The notes beneath the pieces were generated by a model that saw only the letters and a program-made list of their open reading frames with translations, ran no database searches and was not told the DNA's origin. Shown in pieces: positions 25,515-49,710 of a stretch of DNA of 64,000 nucleotides; the stretch's first letter is position 1; each line of letters begins with the position of its first letter. This DNA is from Natronosalvus caseinilyticus. Lineage in GTDB: Archaea > Halobacteriota > Halobacteria > Halobacteriales > Natrialbaceae. Both the position numbers and the translations under genes were made by a program. Location: assembly GCF_017357105.1 (NCBI RefSeq), contig NZ_CP071596.1:1426001-1490000 (forward strand). Direction: 5' to 3'.

Positions 25515-25564
25515 CCCAAAGAGGAGGACGACTCCGAGAACCTCCGCCTGTGCACGCCCCGTGA

Positions 25565-25600
25565 CATCCTCCCCTCGTTAAGATGGGGCTTCCCTACAAG
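25565..25600 (-). repeat. Right-end hairpin of element 1
   Basis: On the minus strand: AGCCCCATCTTAACGAGGGG then AGGATGTCAC. The stem is imperfect (CCCC/GGGG core). In TnpB systems of the IS605 group the 3-prime end of the guide (omega/re) RNA comes from this segment and the guide is the flanking DNA, which here is the first codons of the pilin-like gene. Confidence 0.55.
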
Positions 25601-25611
25601 GGGAATGCCAG

Positions 25612-26883
25612 TTAGTCGTTGCTGGCAGTGGGTTTTGGCTCTTGAAACGGCGTGAGTGTCATCTGCGCTGGTGCGCTCTGCTCACGGTGAGTCGTGGCCG
25701 TGTCACTACGGCTCCCGTCCTGTGGCGAGTCATCGCCTGCCTGTTTCCACGGCAGGCTCTCTCCCCACGGGTCTACGCGATGTGCGATGTTCGCACTCGC
25801 GTTAATATCTGCTTGAAACGTCGAAACGTGGCACGCCGGGTTCTTGCATTTAAACTCGGCTTGCCGAGGCCGATACCCGATCTGCTTGCACGCGTGGCAC
25901 GTCTTCGAAGTATACTGCGGATGAACGTATCGAACCGGAATACCCGCGTCCTTCGCCTTGTCGTCGATTCGTCCCTGCAAGCGAGCGAACGCCCACGAAT
26001 GCAGGCGTCGGTTCATGTACGTCCCGTAATCCAGCGACTCGCGGATGTACGCCAAGTCTTCCATTGCGATGACTGGATTCTCGAACTGCTTAGCATACTC
26101 CACAGCCTCACGAGAGGCTTTCTCGATGATGTCTGTGAGCCGGTTCTGGTAGAACGAGAACCGTTCTTCGATACGCCACTCCGAGGCGTCTCGTTCTTGG
26201 AGACGCTTGAGAGTCGTGAACATCTCCTTGCGGAGTCGTTTGGCTTCTTTCCCGTTGATTAGCAGTGGTTTCGTGGGAGTGTCGTGCTGGAGGGCACAGC
26301 CCGTGACCAGCATCGACTCGCCAATATCGAAGCCGACGTGAGTCGGGTTCTCGGGCATTTCGGTCGTGTCTTCGATCCCGTATTCAACGGTAACGTGGAG
26401 TGTCCACGTCGTACGGCATTTCTGTAAGCGAAGTTCGCCCACCTTGGTACTCGACTCCTTATTGAGCAGATCGTCCCACAAGTCTTGCTGGTCTGGGTTC
26501 AGTCGGAGCGGAATCCAGAAGTTGGTTCCGCGACCGGGTTGCGGGACGTTCCAGCAGATTTCGTACTTGCGCGAGGTATCGCGGTCGAACTTTCCAGCTC
26601 GATTGACGAATCGGAGGGGGTGGTTGTCGTCCAACTCGTTCGCGTTGTACGTTTTGTGGAGTTTGGGGACGTAGGATTTGAGGGCGTCTTTTGCTTGGTA
26701 CGGCAGGCTGTACGGCGTCACCACGTCGTTCGTGGCGCTCATCGTCGTACAGTCTTGCTCGAAGGCGTCTTCGAGAGCTTCACGGTATTCAGACAGCGTT
26801 TGTTGAAGACATTGCTCTTTGCACCGAGTGGGTGGCGCGAGCGTGGCTTCCAGCGTCTTATTCGCTGTCGGAGTCGTTGACAT
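25612..26883 (-). CDS. tnpB: TnpB RNA-guided endonuclease (IS1341-type)
   Basis: 423 residues from the ATG at 26883 (an in-frame ATG at 26901 adds 6). All three RuvC residues are in place: D186 in VGFDIGES, E275 in VIAMEDLAYI and D359 in FQADINASANIA. A zinc ribbon lies between (C329, C332, C346, C351). TnpB uses an RNA from the element's right end to cut DNA next to a short target-adjacent motif, which keeps the element at its site. The tail after residue 375 is disordered and probably overlaps the guide-RNA coding region. Catalytically it looks intact. The small ORF upstream overlaps its start by 26 bases. Confidence 0.9.
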   Translation of the reverse strand: MSTTPTANKTLEATLAPPTRCKEQCLQQTLSEYREALEDAFEQDCTTMSATNDVVTPYSLPYQAKDALKSYVPKLHKTYNANELDDNHPLRFVNRAGKFDRDTSRKYEICWNVPQPGRGTNFWIPLRLNPDQQDLWDDLLNKESSTKVGELRLQKCRTTWTLHVTVEYGIEDTTEMPENPTHVGFDIGESMLVTGCALQHDTPTKPLLINGKEAKRLRKEMFTTLKRLQERDASEWRIEERFSFYQNRLTDIIEKASREAVEYAKQFENPVIAMEDLAYIRESLDYGTYMNRRLHSWAFARLQGRIDDKAKDAGIPVRYVHPQYTSKTCHACKQIGYRPRQAEFKCKNPACHVSTFQADINASANIAHRVDPWGESLPWKQAGDDSPQDGSRSDTATTHREQSAPAQMTLTPFQEPKPTASND

Positions 26884-27019
26884 CGTAGCCTTCGGATTCA
26901 AGTGCTTTACGGAGGAGTTCGGGGTACGCCCGTGAGTGGCGAATCCCGTGGTCGCGGGCGTATTGCTTCACGGCTTCGTGGAGCGGCCCGCCTCGCTCCA
27001 TATTGAAGTCGGCTCTCAT
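26858..27019 (-). CDS. Small RHH-like protein coupled to tnpB (element 1)
   Basis: 53 residues: MRADFNMERGGPLHEAVKQY and then ARDHGIRHSRAYPELLRKALE. One strand followed by two helices fits a ribbon-helix-helix fold. It is clearly related to the 44-residue ORF of element 2 (shared pattern MRxDxxxxRGxxLHExVKxY, then GxRxxxAYxEL). A CTTTAA TATA box centred near 27048 would start transcription at about 27021, so the mRNA is leaderless and begins with this ORF. It overlaps tnpB by 26 bases. Likely an autorepressor or tnpB partner; this is inference. Confidence 0.6.
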   Translation of the reverse strand: MRADFNMERGGPLHEAVKQYARDHGIRHSRAYPELLRKALESEGYDVNDSDSE

Positions 27020-27043
27020 CCATCAAAACGTAAGATATTGCGT

Positions 27044-27052
27044 AAGTTAAAG
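27044..27052 (-). promoter_or_regulatory. TATA box of small ORF-tnpB unit, element 1
   Basis: CTTTAACTT on the minus strand, centred 29 bases before the ATG at 27019. The same CTTTAA box at the same distance precedes the corresponding ORF of element 2. Confidence 0.5.
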
Positions 27053-27134
27053 ATAACGCTCAACATTCAGACTAAGCGTCAGAACGTGGTTCGTTCAGCA
27101 AATATCGGATTCCCTCTCGCTGCAAACGGTGAGA

Positions 27135-27151
27135 TTCCTTCATTGAAGGAA
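27135..27151 (-). repeat. Left-end hairpin of element 1
   Basis: A perfect 8-base inverted repeat (TTCCTTCA, one base, TGAAGGAA) near the left terminus. It occupies the same place as the CCCG/CGGG hairpins at the left ends of the other elements, although the stem sequence differs. Confidence 0.5.
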
Positions 27152-27302
27152 GTTGTCATGTCAGCCCAACGGTGGTATACATACACATTATGGCGAGTTT
27201 AACATTCTGCAAATCGAATGGGTTGCCTAACCGAAGGAACAACACAGGTAGGCAGCCGAATGGACTGTCCAGAACGCTCGAGCGACACGACCGCGACGAT
27301 AG

Positions 27303-27710: not shown

Positions 27711-28012
27711 TCACAGGTCTGTGAGTTCGTCTGTCAGTTCGTCGCCCTGCTCGAGAACGGTTTTCGATGCCCGGAGCGCCTCTGCATCCTGCCGACCGAG
27801 AACGGTTTTCAGGGTGTCGAACTCGATCTGATCCTCGAGGTAGAGTTCGGTGACCCCTTCCTTAAATCGGCTTCGTCCTCGATCCCCTCGAAGTACTCCT
27901 GGAGTGCTTCCTTGATGACCTCGGTCCGATTTTTGTGAGCGACTTTGGCGACGAGATCTGCCTTCTTGACCAGTTCGTTCGGTAGTATAATGTTGACTCT
28001 CCTGGTTCCCAT
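27711..28012 (-). pseudogene. RHH (CopG-type) antitoxin, frameshifted
   Basis: From the ATG at 28012 the frame reads MGTRRVNIILPNELVKKADL, then HKNRTEVIKEALQEYFEGIEDEADL, a typical ribbon-helix-helix antitoxin. It then goes out of frame near 27865; the proper continuation FKEGVTELYLEDQIEFDTLK... and LEQGDELTDELTDL is found in the next frame and ends one base before the VapC stub. A single frameshift thus separates the DNA-binding and toxin-binding parts. With the truncated toxin it is a dead VapBC-like module. Confidence 0.65.
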
Positions 28013-45036: not shown

Positions 45037-45540
45037 ATGAGTAATCACACGAAACACACGGGCGCGATTCTCACCAAATTAGCGAACGAGGGGTCGATGG
45101 CTGCCGCGACAGCGCAGGACTCCGTCGAGTGTAACGAAAACCATCAGTCCGCGGTTGACCGTGACCTCGAGGAGATGATGGCGCAGGTCGTTAGCGTCCT
45201 CCCTGCCGACGACGTTCGGTTCGAGGACGCGCTTCTCAAGGAAAATCTCGACGAGGTCCTCTTGATGCTCGTCGCCCTCCACGACGGGGCTAACGGCAAG
45301 GAACTCCTCTCGACGTTAGCCACCTACTTCGACGTCCAGTTGAGCCCCGGTATCGTGTACCCAGCGCTTCACGACCTCGAGGACGAGGCATTCCTGGAGA
45401 TGCACCCGATGGTCCGGACGAAGGAATATTCGATTTCGAACGAAGACCACGTACGTGCGACGCTCGAGTCGACGATGGTCCAGCACCTCGCGTTCGGTTT
45501 GCTGCTCTCTGCGTTTCTCTCCCGACTCACCTCATCATAA
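45037..45540 (+). CDS. PadR-like transcriptional regulator
   Basis: 167 residues. The first 60 are polar and disordered, with repeated acidic residues. LMLVALHDGANGKELLSTLA and then YFDVQLSPGIVYPALHDLED are a winged helix of PadR type (the SPGxVYPxLxxLE recognition helix), with a wing at RTKEYSISNEDHVRATLE. A final hydrophobic helix (HLAFGLLLSAFLSRL) may be a dimerisation or membrane-associated part. A TnpB element begins right behind the gene. Confidence 0.8.
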   Translation: MSNHTKHTGAILTKLANEGSMAAATAQDSVECNENHQSAVDRDLEEMMAQVVSVLPADDVRFEDALLKENLDEVLLMLVALHDGANGKELLSTLATYFDVQLSPGIVYPALHDLEDEAFLEMHPMVRTKEYSISNEDHVRATLESTMVQHLAFGLLLSAFLSRLTSS

Positions 45541-45578
45541 CTTACACGACTGCTACTATCTTTAATCAGCGAGAGAAT

Positions 45579-45596
45579 CCCGCCGTTCACGGCGGG
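45579..45596 (+). repeat. Left-end hairpin of element 2
   Basis: Seven-base stem CCCGCCG/CGGCGGG with loop TTCA, embedded in GAGAGAAT...CGTGAATC. A subterminal hairpin of this type is where the Y1 transposase binds in the IS605 group. Confidence 0.6.
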
Positions 45597-45665
45597 CGTG
45601 AATCGCGTCACTCAACTACGTAACCTACGAGCGACGGCCAACCGAACATCTATCGCGATACGAAT

Positions 45666-45672
45666 CTTTAAG
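45666..45672 (+). promoter_or_regulatory. TATA box of small ORF-tnpB unit, element 2
   Basis: CTTTAAG centred at 45670, 29 bases before the ATG at 45699. It predicts a leaderless transcript beginning with the small ORF, matching element 1 in sequence and spacing. Confidence 0.5.
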
Positions 45673-45698
45673 ATACACAATAACGTACTGAAAAACGG

Positions 45699-45833
45699 AT
45701 GCGAATTGATATCGCCATCGACCGTGGAAGCGACCTCCACGAGCGAGTGAAAGAATACTCTCGCGAGAACGGCCTACGAATGGACTTCGCCTACGCCGAA
45801 CTCGTCGAACAAGGGTTAGACGCTGACGAATGA
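45699..45833 (+). CDS. Small RHH-like protein coupled to tnpB (element 2)
   Basis: 44 residues: MRIDIAIDRGSDLHERVKEY and then SRENGLRMDFAYAELVEQGL. A strand, then two helices, as in ribbon-helix-helix DNA-binding dimers. Its stop overlaps the tnpB start (ATGA). The same protein type, with about 40 percent identity by eye, precedes tnpB in element 1 but not in element 3. It probably binds the element's own promoter or ends; no experimental family is known to me. Confidence 0.65.
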   Translation: MRIDIAIDRGSDLHERVKEYSRENGLRMDFAYAELVEQGLDADE

Positions 45834-47149
45834 GTGAGGAGTGCAAGACGCTCGAAGCGTATCTTGCCCCACTCACTCAGCACAAGCAGCGCAAACTCGA
45901 AAACGAACACGAACGATACGAAGCGTTACTCCATCGTAGTTTCAACGACGAGTGCGATACGATGAGTGCCGTCAACGAGGTCGTTAGCGGCGAAGCCCTC
46001 AACTGGCACTCGAAAAACGCGCTCAAACAATACGTGCCAAACCTCTTAGACGAGGACACGTATGATGCGAAGCAACTCGCAGACGACCACCCCATCCGCT
46101 ACGCCAACACCGCAGCCGTCTTCGACATCCATGAAGATCGCCACCACAAAATATGCTGGGAGGTTCCACTCCCCGGTCGTGGAACAAACGTCTGGATTCC
46201 ACTCCAGTTGAATCCCGAGCAAGAAGACTGGTGGTACGCACTCATCGATGAAGACGACGAGAGTGTACGGGCGGGGGAACTCCGCCTGCAACGCGATGGG
46301 ACTCGCTGGGTGTTACACGTCACTGCGAACTACGAAGTCGAACTTGACCACTCGTGCTCGTGTGACAGCGACGATGTAACGCCCGTTGGATTCGACGTGG
46401 GCGAATCCAAGCTCTTGGTAGGCTGTGCCCTTCAAGACGACACCCCCGTTGACCCGTTGTTCGTGGATGGTGGTCGCGTCCGACACCTCCGACAGAAACA
46501 AGCCAGTGCCGAAGACCGCTTGAAACCCCGAGACGCCCCAAAGCTCCTCGACGATCTCGTGTGGGGACGGTGGCAAGACGCCATTGAAGACGAAATCGAG
46601 AAAGCCTCGACACGAGCTGTCGAATACGCCTTCCAATTCGAAAACCCGATTGTCGTCCTCGAATGCCTCGATGGCATCACGGACGAGGATATCGGGAAGT
46701 ACTGGAATCGACGCCTCGGCAAGTGGTTGTTCTCTCAGATACAATCGCGTATCGAGGATAAGGCTGCGGAGCGTGGTATCCCTGTGGAGTACGTGTACCC
46801 GCATTACACGTCGAAGACGTGTCACGCCTGCAAGCACATCGGGTATCGACCGCATCAGGGCACGTTCAAGTGTACGTACAAGGGGTGTTGGGTGTCGGAG
46901 TATCAAGCGGATTTGAACGCAGCCGCGAATATAGCCAGTCGGCTAAATCCGTGGGGAGAGAGCCTGCCTTGGAAATCGGCAGGCGATGACTCACCACAGA
47001 GCGGGGGCCAGTGGCAGGCCCACGAAGACACGTCACCGAGCGAGGAACTCCCGTCTGAGAAGCGGGCTTCCGATGACAAGGTTTCGTCTAGCTCACCAGC
47101 AGTGGGAGCAGGGACGAAGCCGGAGACCGGTGACACGCACACGTCTTGA
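45830..47149 (+). CDS. tnpB: TnpB RNA-guided endonuclease (IS1341-type)
   Basis: 439 residues. RuvC residues D189 (VGFDVGES), E278 (IVVLECLDG) and D361 (YQADLNAAANIA) are all present, with zinc cysteines C331, C334, C348 and C353. It is a sister of the enzyme in element 1 over the whole length (PLPGRGTNVWIPLQLNP, YTSKTCHACKHIGYRP). The Ser/Asp/Glu-rich tail after residue 375 is variable. It should be able to cut DNA under guidance of an RNA from the right end. Coupled to the small ORF by a 4-base overlap. Confidence 0.92.
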   Translation: MSEECKTLEAYLAPLTQHKQRKLENEHERYEALLHRSFNDECDTMSAVNEVVSGEALNWHSKNALKQYVPNLLDEDTYDAKQLADDHPIRYANTAAVFDIHEDRHHKICWEVPLPGRGTNVWIPLQLNPEQEDWWYALIDEDDESVRAGELRLQRDGTRWVLHVTANYEVELDHSCSCDSDDVTPVGFDVGESKLLVGCALQDDTPVDPLFVDGGRVRHLRQKQASAEDRLKPRDAPKLLDDLVWGRWQDAIEDEIEKASTRAVEYAFQFENPIVVLECLDGITDEDIGKYWNRRLGKWLFSQIQSRIEDKAAERGIPVEYVYPHYTSKTCHACKHIGYRPHQGTFKCTYKGCWVSEYQADLNAAANIASRLNPWGESLPWKSAGDDSPQSGGQWQAHEDTSPSEELPSEKRASDDKVSSSSPAVGAGTKPETGDTHTS

Positions 47150-47175
47150 AACCTCAATCCAGCACTTCACTGGTA

Positions 47176-47224
47176 TTCCACCTGCGGTGGAAGCCCCGGC
47201 GTTCACGCCGGGCGAGGATGTCAC
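47176..47224 (+). repeat. Right-end double hairpin of element 2
   Basis: Two adjacent stems: TTCCACC/GGTGGAA (47176-47192) and CCCGGCG-TTCA-CGCCGGG (47195-47212), followed by CGAGGATGTCAC. This is the probable 3-prime part of the guide RNA; the guide would be the next bases, beginning CGAAACCAGAACTGAG. Confidence 0.55.
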
Positions 47225-48312: not shown

Positions 48313-49650
48313 ATGGCGAAACAGGTCGTCACACGAACCTACACTGCTTCCATTGGGAATCAGCAACAGGTGTCTGACGACCTTGACGCCCTTGGGTTCG
48401 CCGCCTCGAAACTCTGGAACGTCGGACGGTGGACAATCAGTCGCGTCTGGGATGAAATCGGCTACATCCCAGAACACGACGAACTCACCGCGTACCTGAA
48501 GTCACACGAACGCTACGATGACCTGCATTCTCAGTCAAGTCAGCGAGTCCTTCAAGAACTCGCTGAGGCGTTCAACGGCTGGTACGGCAAACGACGCAAC
48601 GGAGACACGAACGCGAACCCGCTCGGCTACCGCAAACACAGAGACGAACATCCGCGTTCCACGGTCACGTTCAAAAACAAAGGCTTCAAACTCGACACTA
48701 AGTACAACCGCCTCCGCCTCTCCAAAGGCTCCAACCTCAAGGAGTACTGGTCGGACTTCATCCTCTGTGAATACCAGACTCGCCCCGACGTTGACCTCTC
48801 TACCGTAGAGAGCGTTCAACAAGTTCGAACCGTCTGGACAGGGGATGAGTGGGAACTGCACTTCGTCTGCAAAGTCGAAATCGAAGTGTCCGAAGCCCCT
48901 AGTGAGCAAACCGTGGGTGTTGACCTCGGGATCACCAACTTCGCCGTACTCGCCTACGAAGATGGCCACGCTGAGTTGTATCCGCTCAACTGTCTGAAGC
49001 AGGACGACTACTACTTCAGCAAGCGTATCGCTCGCTGTGACGACTCGGATTCCGAGCAAGCCACGCGGTTGAACCGGAGGAAGTCGGCTCGCCGCACCCA
49101 CTACTTCCACACGCTTTCCAAGCACATCGTCCAGCGGTGCGTTGACGAAGGGGTTGGAACGATTGTGGTGGGCGACCTCTCCGGTATCCGCGAAGACGAG
49201 GAGAACGGCGAGTCAAAGGACTGGGGCAAGCACGGGAACCTCGATCTGCATTCGTGGGCGTTCGACCGCTTTACCGACCTTCTCGAATACAAGGCCGAGA
49301 TGGAAGGCATCACAATCAAGCAGGTGTTTGAGCGGGATACGTCCAAATCGTGTTCGTGCTGTGGTCGTAAGCGTGACGCGAACCGCGTGGAGCGCGGGTT
49401 GTACGTCTGCGACGAGTGTGGGATGGTGGCGAATGCTGACGTGAATGGCGCAGAGAACATTCGGCAGAAAGTATCTCCGATTCTCGTCACGGATGGCGTT
49501 GACGAGACGCACAGCGTCTCGTCCGCACACCAGAACGCGAAGCATTCTGGGGACGGCGATAGGAGTAACGGCTGGTTGGCACAGCCATCGACGTTCCTGT
49601 TTGACAAGGAAACTGGTGCGTTCGCACCTCGAGAACAGGTCACGTCGTAA
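48313..49650 (+). CDS. tnpB: TnpB-family protein, second subtype, RuvC-II Glu altered
   Basis: 445 residues. The fold is clear: D204 in VGVDLGITNFA, D376 in ANADVNGAENI, zinc cysteines C347, C350, C366 and C369. The RuvC-II segment reads TIVVGDLSGI, with Gly at 287 where elements 1 and 2 have Glu (AMEDL, VLECL). Either catalysis relies on a displaced acidic residue (Asp288, or the REDEENGE stretch after it), as has been described for some TnpB branches, or the nuclease is weak or dead. The same GDLSGI sequence seems common in haloarchaeal proteins of this subtype, so it is not a fresh mutation. Confidence 0.9.
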   Translation: MAKQVVTRTYTASIGNQQQVSDDLDALGFAASKLWNVGRWTISRVWDEIGYIPEHDELTAYLKSHERYDDLHSQSSQRVLQELAEAFNGWYGKRRNGDTNANPLGYRKHRDEHPRSTVTFKNKGFKLDTKYNRLRLSKGSNLKEYWSDFILCEYQTRPDVDLSTVESVQQVRTVWTGDEWELHFVCKVEIEVSEAPSEQTVGVDLGITNFAVLAYEDGHAELYPLNCLKQDDYYFSKRIARCDDSDSEQATRLNRRKSARRTHYFHTLSKHIVQRCVDEGVGTIVVGDLSGIREDEENGESKDWGKHGNLDLHSWAFDRFTDLLEYKAEMEGITIKQVFERDTSKSCSCCGRKRDANRVERGLYVCDECGMVANADVNGAENIRQKVSPILVTDGVDETHSVSSAHQNAKHSGDGDRSNGWLAQPSTFLFDKETGAFAPREQVTS

Positions 49651-49679
49651 ACCACAATATCCCAACGACGGTCGGGAAT

Positions 49680-49710
49680 CCCACGACTTCAGTCGTGTGG
49701 AGGATGTCAA
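49680..49710 (+). repeat. Right-end hairpin of element 3
   Basis: CCACGACT-TC-AGTCGTGTGG with one bulged base, followed by AGGATGTCAA. Putative end of the guide RNA; the flanking guide would begin AGAGTGCGGTTCAACC. Confidence 0.55.

Follow-up and report, generated by a model that had tools for sequence, protein, structure and literature searches.

A probable ribbon-helix-helix mini-protein gene in the tnpA position upstream of haloarchaeal tnpB genes

We analysed a window of 64,000 nucleotides (nt) from Natronosalvus caseinilyticus (contig NZ_CP071596.1, positions 1,426,001 to 1,490,000), in which the coding part of two mobile elements without tnpA begins with a short open reading frame (sORF) that overlaps tnpB. 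We found that the sORF is a real gene whose protein is under strong purifying selection, and that it occupies the slot held in related elements by tnpA, with which it is mutually exclusive in our sample. The protein is probably ribbon-helix-helix (RHH)-like. The best explanation, and one we consider reasonably likely, is that it acts as an autorepressor of the sORF-tnpB operon.

A small gene under selection before tnpB

Elements 1 and 2 contain the sORF and tnpB alone, and no Y1 transposase TnpA was found in either; TnpA is absent by definition from the IS1341 group. The first-pass annotation of this DNA had described ORFs of 44-53 amino acids in front of the two tnpB genes, overlapping them by 26 nt in element 1 and by ATGA in element 2, and both were found as described. 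It had also called the two elements diverged, which agrees with the ~52% identity between their TnpB proteins. The CTTTAA box that it placed about 29 nt before each ATG is present, but at exactly 27 nt, which is the spacing expected between the TATA box and start codon of a leaderless haloarchaeal transcript. The tnpB1 and tnpB2 proteins have the zinc-ribbon/RuvC region of TnpB at their C-terminal side: they match the Cas12f1-like_TNB domain (2.4e-15 and 3.8e-16) and NCBIfam guided_TnpB, the latter slightly below its cut-off for tnpB2. Palindromes near the termini form hairpins in element 2 and are degenerate in element 1. Guide-type RNAs (sotRNA) are processed from the tnpB transcript (PMC8303175); among the three tnpBs of the window, Rfam sot0042 matched at tnpB3 alone (49469-49700), with no match at tnpB1 or tnpB2.

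Besides the window pair, the same genome holds two more sORF copies. A profile of these four copies had matches in 143 of the 391 Halobacteria genomes that were sampled, and at 38 loci in named genomes. The strong matches (E<1e-20) represent the sORF family and split into subfamilies A (MRADFDMERGGPLHE), B (VRTEIDMERG), C (MRVDIAIERG) and D (VRTDVDMERDGDLHE). Many weaker ones belong to a related family, and the weaker matches as a whole are mostly relatives beside other tnpBs, either upstream on the same strand (F4, MTERHLRVDLTDEDIQRAKEYADEHGLRMPRAYGDLIRSGLE) or divergent (F1b, MRPNIDISHTLNGRVKDYAEANDLDLSEAYAEVLEAGLEAL); profile comparison showed both to be homologous to the sORF (1.5e-14 and 1e-13, respectively). 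With the tnpB overlap excluded, the ratio of nonsynonymous to synonymous substitution rates (dN/dS) within subfamilies A, B, C and D was 0.15, 0.07, 0.12 and 0.06. These values are far from 1 and bear out the earlier suggestion that the small protein is under selection.

Neither Pfam nor NCBIfam assigned a family to the sORF, which matches an uncharacterised family in PHROGs (E=5e-4); plasmid records label it hypothetical or omit it. We rejected a spread beyond Halobacteria, since the seven weak matches in other classes do not adjoin a tnpB, and likewise a viral origin, since no relatives were found in viral contigs or phage records. Some sORF loci are cut off by the end of their contig or are followed by a broken tnpB, and at two (L051 and L059) we found no tnpB of this type. 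A B-type copy in L007 (G000:C1:43.3 kb) has an intact sORF and a broken tnpB frame. One haloarchaeal sORF-tnpB element (L063) lies on a metagenome-assembled contig whose label, Halobacteroidaceae (Bacillota), probably reflects misbinning. At three loci (L097, L322 and L323) an F1b-type sequence (MRPNxDIPW..) stands at the N-terminus of a frame of ~370-400 amino acids that does not adjoin tnpB, possibly a fusion.

Probable exchange of the gene in the tnpA slot

Relatives with ~66% identity to tnpB1 often have as upstream neighbour a canonical Y1 TnpA of 130 amino acids (Y1_Tnp, 1e-40) whose end coincides with the start of tnpB. We call this position the tnpA slot and tallied its occupants at 103 distinct full-length tnpB loci, a TnpB-seeded, non-random sample of the best matches of tnpB1 and tnpB2 plus further listed loci, biased to their relatives. 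The slot held TnpA at 33 loci, the sORF at 27, F2 at 34, F3 at 6 and none of these at 3, and no locus held two of the four occupants. Relatives that had seemed bare carry one of the divergently read mini-proteins of ~45 amino acids, F2 (MKNINIEVDEEQYESLKDTKKRHGLTWRGMLLHAQRELDSG) or F3 (MERRNVTIREEQDEWIRENHINLSSLVRECIDERMESS), which together fill 40 of the 103 slots; the start codons of mini-protein and tnpB are usually ~49 nt apart. A separate F2-seeded search gave the divergent arrangement with TnpB in 26 of 30 loci, the other four being three truncated loci without a TnpB match and one in opposite orientation. Two of the three empty slots lie at sequence limits (L197 is cut by the contig end, and the second hit at L238 leaves the fetched stretch); L192 is a genuine exception, the sole intact tnpB of the sampled lineage without TnpA or a recognised mini-protein upstream. 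The first-pass annotation missed the tnpA-slot position, the unrelated divergent mini-proteins found there and the lack of a recognised mini-protein at tnpB3.

The third tnpB of the window limits this pattern. None of 30 sampled loci of the tnpB3 clade (tnpB3 and its relatives) has a recognised mini-protein or TnpA, which weighs against our preferred explanation and led us to reject a universal rule for tnpA-less tnpBs.

In a tree built from 126 TnpBs, the sORF label requires 11 changes and the TnpA label 9, of which well-supported branches force at least five and at least four, respectively. Within one B-clade group of 32 similar TnpBs the TnpA and sORF versions are interleaved, with many inner branches weak. 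The same type of left-end hairpin is found in sORF- and TnpA-bearing elements, so the slot seems to be exchanged inside an otherwise similar element. The tree implies that the occupant of the slot was swapped repeatedly.

The mobility of the elements was examined with an empty-site test, in which a junction query built from both flanks was searched in sister species. Contiguous empty sites were found for element 1 in G277 and G250 and for element 2 in G277. Unless they were lost from these sister species, both window elements, which hold only the sORF and tnpB, apparently moved without encoding a TnpA themselves. Four intact Y1 TnpAs are encoded elsewhere in the genome and could act on the elements in trans. 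Directly beside the insertion point of element 2 lies a gene for a PadR-like winged-helix protein (45037-45540, plus strand; E=1.6e-4, below the Pfam cut-off), which is also present at the empty site of the sister species.

Fold and promoter of the mini-protein

Several comparisons point to an RHH-like fold. The top three PDB matches of a wide family profile were all RHH proteins, namely 9kkd (E=0.003), ArtA (0.02) and 56B/SvtR (0.1); 9kkd is the CopG-family RHH protein StnY, and the alignment to it is in register from end to end. F1b, the sORF homologue, can be aligned over its full length to RHH_1 proteins encoded in this genome (P=0.0016). AF2 models from alignments of 31 and 22 rows contain helices at residues 12-24 and 28-41/42 with pLDDT (predicted local distance difference test) ~90. 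When the model of ORF 2 was searched with Foldseek, the best four matches were CopG, AmrZ, StnY and CopG, all of them RHH, led by CopG 1ea4 with a template modelling score of 0.69/0.69 over 44 columns.

Other results weigh against this assignment. A narrow sORF profile found no RHH protein in PDB and aligned only weakly with RHH_1 (P=0.03), no Pfam RHH model matched the sORF above its cut-off, and the Foldseek E-values were 1.6 or more, so that none is individually significant. The N-terminal strand segment visible in the sequence is unformed in both AF2 monomer models. Of the strand and two helices proposed in the first pass, the helices are confidently predicted and the strand is missing from the monomer models. 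The broader RHH proposal gains from the RHH-dominated profile and structural matches and from a promoter box pair in most subfamilies, and is weakened by the unmet Pfam cut-offs; we regard the sORF protein as probably RHH-like.

For F2 and F3, profile searches of PDB found no RHH protein, while a single comparison each with RHH_1 proteins of this genome gave an alignment in register (P=9e-5 and 2e-4), so their RHH assignment rests on pattern and weak profiles. A host-type RHH_1 protein is encoded at 27809-28012 (minus strand; 21.7 bits, Pfam cut-off 20.5), ~0.65 kb from element 1.

Between TATA box and start, 20 of the 23 promoters of subfamily A have a pair of boxes 12 bp apart (CTTACG-N6-CTTACG, a TTAC pair), as do 13 of 13 in C ((G/A)TAC-N8-GTAC, as GTACG..GTAC) and 7 of 7 in D (TTACA..TTACA). 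In all three the boxes are better conserved than the spacer, with 0.4-1.0% of random block pairs equally conserved; these conservation fractions are descriptive, as the box positions were picked after viewing the alignment. Apparent GTTAC repeats 11 bp apart occur in several F2 intergenic regions. The paired boxes appear to form a repeated operator-like site at the sORF's own promoter, clear in three of the four subfamilies, and are a putative binding site for its product. Two points count against this interpretation: subfamily B has mainly the second box (ACGTAC in 23/26), while 9/26 have two GTAC boxes at a distance of 13 bp, and the boxes may have a role in promoter function as such rather than in repression.

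Table 1. Features of the two sORF-tnpB elements and of tnpB3 in the window
Feature	Position	Strand	Remarks
Element 1, IS605/IS1341-like, no tnpA, ~1.6 kb	25564..27158	-	Approximate ends, set by the empty sites of sister species G277 and G250
sORF 1, RHH-like (probable) mini-protein, 53 amino acids, subfamily A, MRADFNMERGGPLHEAVKQYARDHGIRHSRAYPELLRKALESEGYDVNDSDSE	26858..27019	-	
tnpB1, RNA-guided endonuclease TnpB family	25612..26883	-	ATG at 26883; 26-nt overlap with sORF 1
CTTTAA TATA box of sORF 1	27047..27052	-	27 nt 5' of start
Candidate operator CTTACG-N6-CTTACG, between TATA box and sORF 1 start	27029..27046	-	
Element 2, no tnpA, ~1.67 kb	45555..47224	+	Approximate ends, from empty site in sister species G277
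Left-end hairpin of element 2, CCCGCCGTTCACGGCGGG	45579..45596	+	Type shared with TnpA-bearing relatives
CTTTAA TATA box of sORF 2	45666..45671	+	27 nt 5' of start
Candidate operator ATAC-N8-GTAC, between TATA box and sORF 2 start	45673..45688	+	
sORF 2, RHH-like (probable) mini-protein, 44 amino acids, subfamily C	45699..45833	+	
tnpB2	45830..47149	+	ATGA overlap with sORF 2
Right-end hairpin of element 2, CCCGGCGTTCACGCCGGG	47195..47212	+	
tnpB3, solo	48313..49650	+	Neither recognised mini-protein nor TnpA upstream

Possible roles and relation to known systems

We favour an autorepressor that would work as follows. The RHH-like mini-protein of 44-53 amino acids would form a dimer and bind the paired TAC boxes between TATA box and start, and this binding would repress the leaderless sORF-tnpB operon. 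TnpB, together with the guide RNA derived from the tnpB transcript, would thereby be kept low in elements that lack tnpA, presumably because the nuclease has to be dosed. The first-pass annotation had suggested such a check on tnpB and guide RNA or, alternatively, recruitment of TnpA, which may also occur.

Four other explanations were weighed. The mini-protein may instead be an accessory factor of transposition that binds the element ends or the single-stranded DNA circle and aids TnpA in trans or TnpB-driven homing, so that tnpA-less elements move. Such a role would fit its position in the tnpA slot, the similarity of the left-end hairpins to those of TnpA-bearing relatives, the absence of both elements from the orthologous sites in sister species and the four intact Y1 TnpAs elsewhere in the genome. 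We nevertheless consider it unlikely, because the conserved box pair is located in the promoter (the A-type site occurs once in the window, at the element 1 promoter and not at element ends), divergent mini-proteins at a shared intergenic promoter have the layout of regulators, and no recognised mini-protein accompanies the tnpBs of the tnpB3 clade. A direct inhibitor of TnpB would be antitoxin-like: it would bind TnpB, alone or in complex with its RNA, and, like type II antitoxins, would repress its own gene only incidentally. The small size, acidic C-terminal tail, RHH-like fold and overlapping or divergent layout suit such a role, as does the weak match of one F3 member to Pfam CcdA (E=0.01, below the cut-off). 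Yet the protein has almost no C-terminal extension with which to grip a partner, and swaps among unalignable families would require the TnpB interface to evolve again and again, which makes direct inhibition quite improbable.

That the sORF is an inert leader whose translation merely couples ribosomes into tnpB is suggested by the same-strand overlaps of 4-26 nt, which resemble the arrangement in relatives whose tnpA adjoins or overlaps tnpB. The dN/dS values of 0.06-0.15 and the divergent mini-proteins of the same slot, which could not couple translation, render this very unlikely. Finally, apart from the position in the tnpA slot, nothing speaks for a degraded tnpA remnant or a chance ORF: the sORF does not align to TnpA, is under strong purifying selection and is present across Halobacteria. 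Both were rejected, and we give them practically no credence.

A wider idea is more tentative than the autorepressor itself, and we think it rather doubtful. The loss of TnpA from haloarchaeal TnpB elements may be tied to the repeated gain of RHH-like mini-proteins from unrelated families, as the mini-protein would make a distinct kind of mobile element viable, with TnpB-driven homing or TnpA in trans as its means of spread and the mini-protein either setting the dose or acting at the ends. In Natronomonas, 35 of 38 tnpBs are unlinked to tnpA, and a haloarchaeal survey found the excess of tnpB over tnpA hard to explain (PMC3119063). How haloarchaeal tnpBs persist, move and remain at low copy without tnpA is an open puzzle (PMC3119063), to which a mini-protein replacing the transposase would be a concrete, testable answer. 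It would also suggest that the TnpB family, relatives of Cas12, has natural protein regulators, and many elements treated as tnpB-only hold a second gene missed by annotation. In the open-licence literature that we searched, no report of the sORF gene was found.

IS605-type tnpA-tnpB elements share with the sORF elements TnpB, the left-end hairpin and a first gene abutting or overlapping tnpB, but have the Y1 transposase where the latter have the mini-protein. IS1341-type elements likewise have tnpB without tnpA; in contrast to tnpB-only elements, most sampled elements of the tnpB1/tnpB2 lineage carry a mini-protein gene, labelled hypothetical or omitted in the records. The protein itself resembles RHH repressors of the CopG/Arc/AmrZ type and the archaeal SvtR (virus SIRV1) and ORF56 (plasmid pRN1) in its size, in two predicted helices after an N-terminal strand-like segment and in a repeat-type promoter site, and these are its best structural and profile matches. 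It differs from them in being encoded within a TnpB transposon, where its gene takes up the tnpA slot and overlaps tnpB, and in falling below the Pfam RHH cut-offs. The RHH type II antitoxins VapB and CcdA are small DNA-binding partners adjoining a nuclease gene, as the sORF protein would be; the latter, however, has no separate partner-binding domain, and its partner is an RNA-guided nuclease. Regulation is also tied to TnpB relatives in TldR (PMC13418256), a group of TnpB-like transcription factors guided by RNA. In TldR the TnpB homologue itself acts as the RNA-guided repressor, whereas in the sORF system a separate protein would be the repressor.
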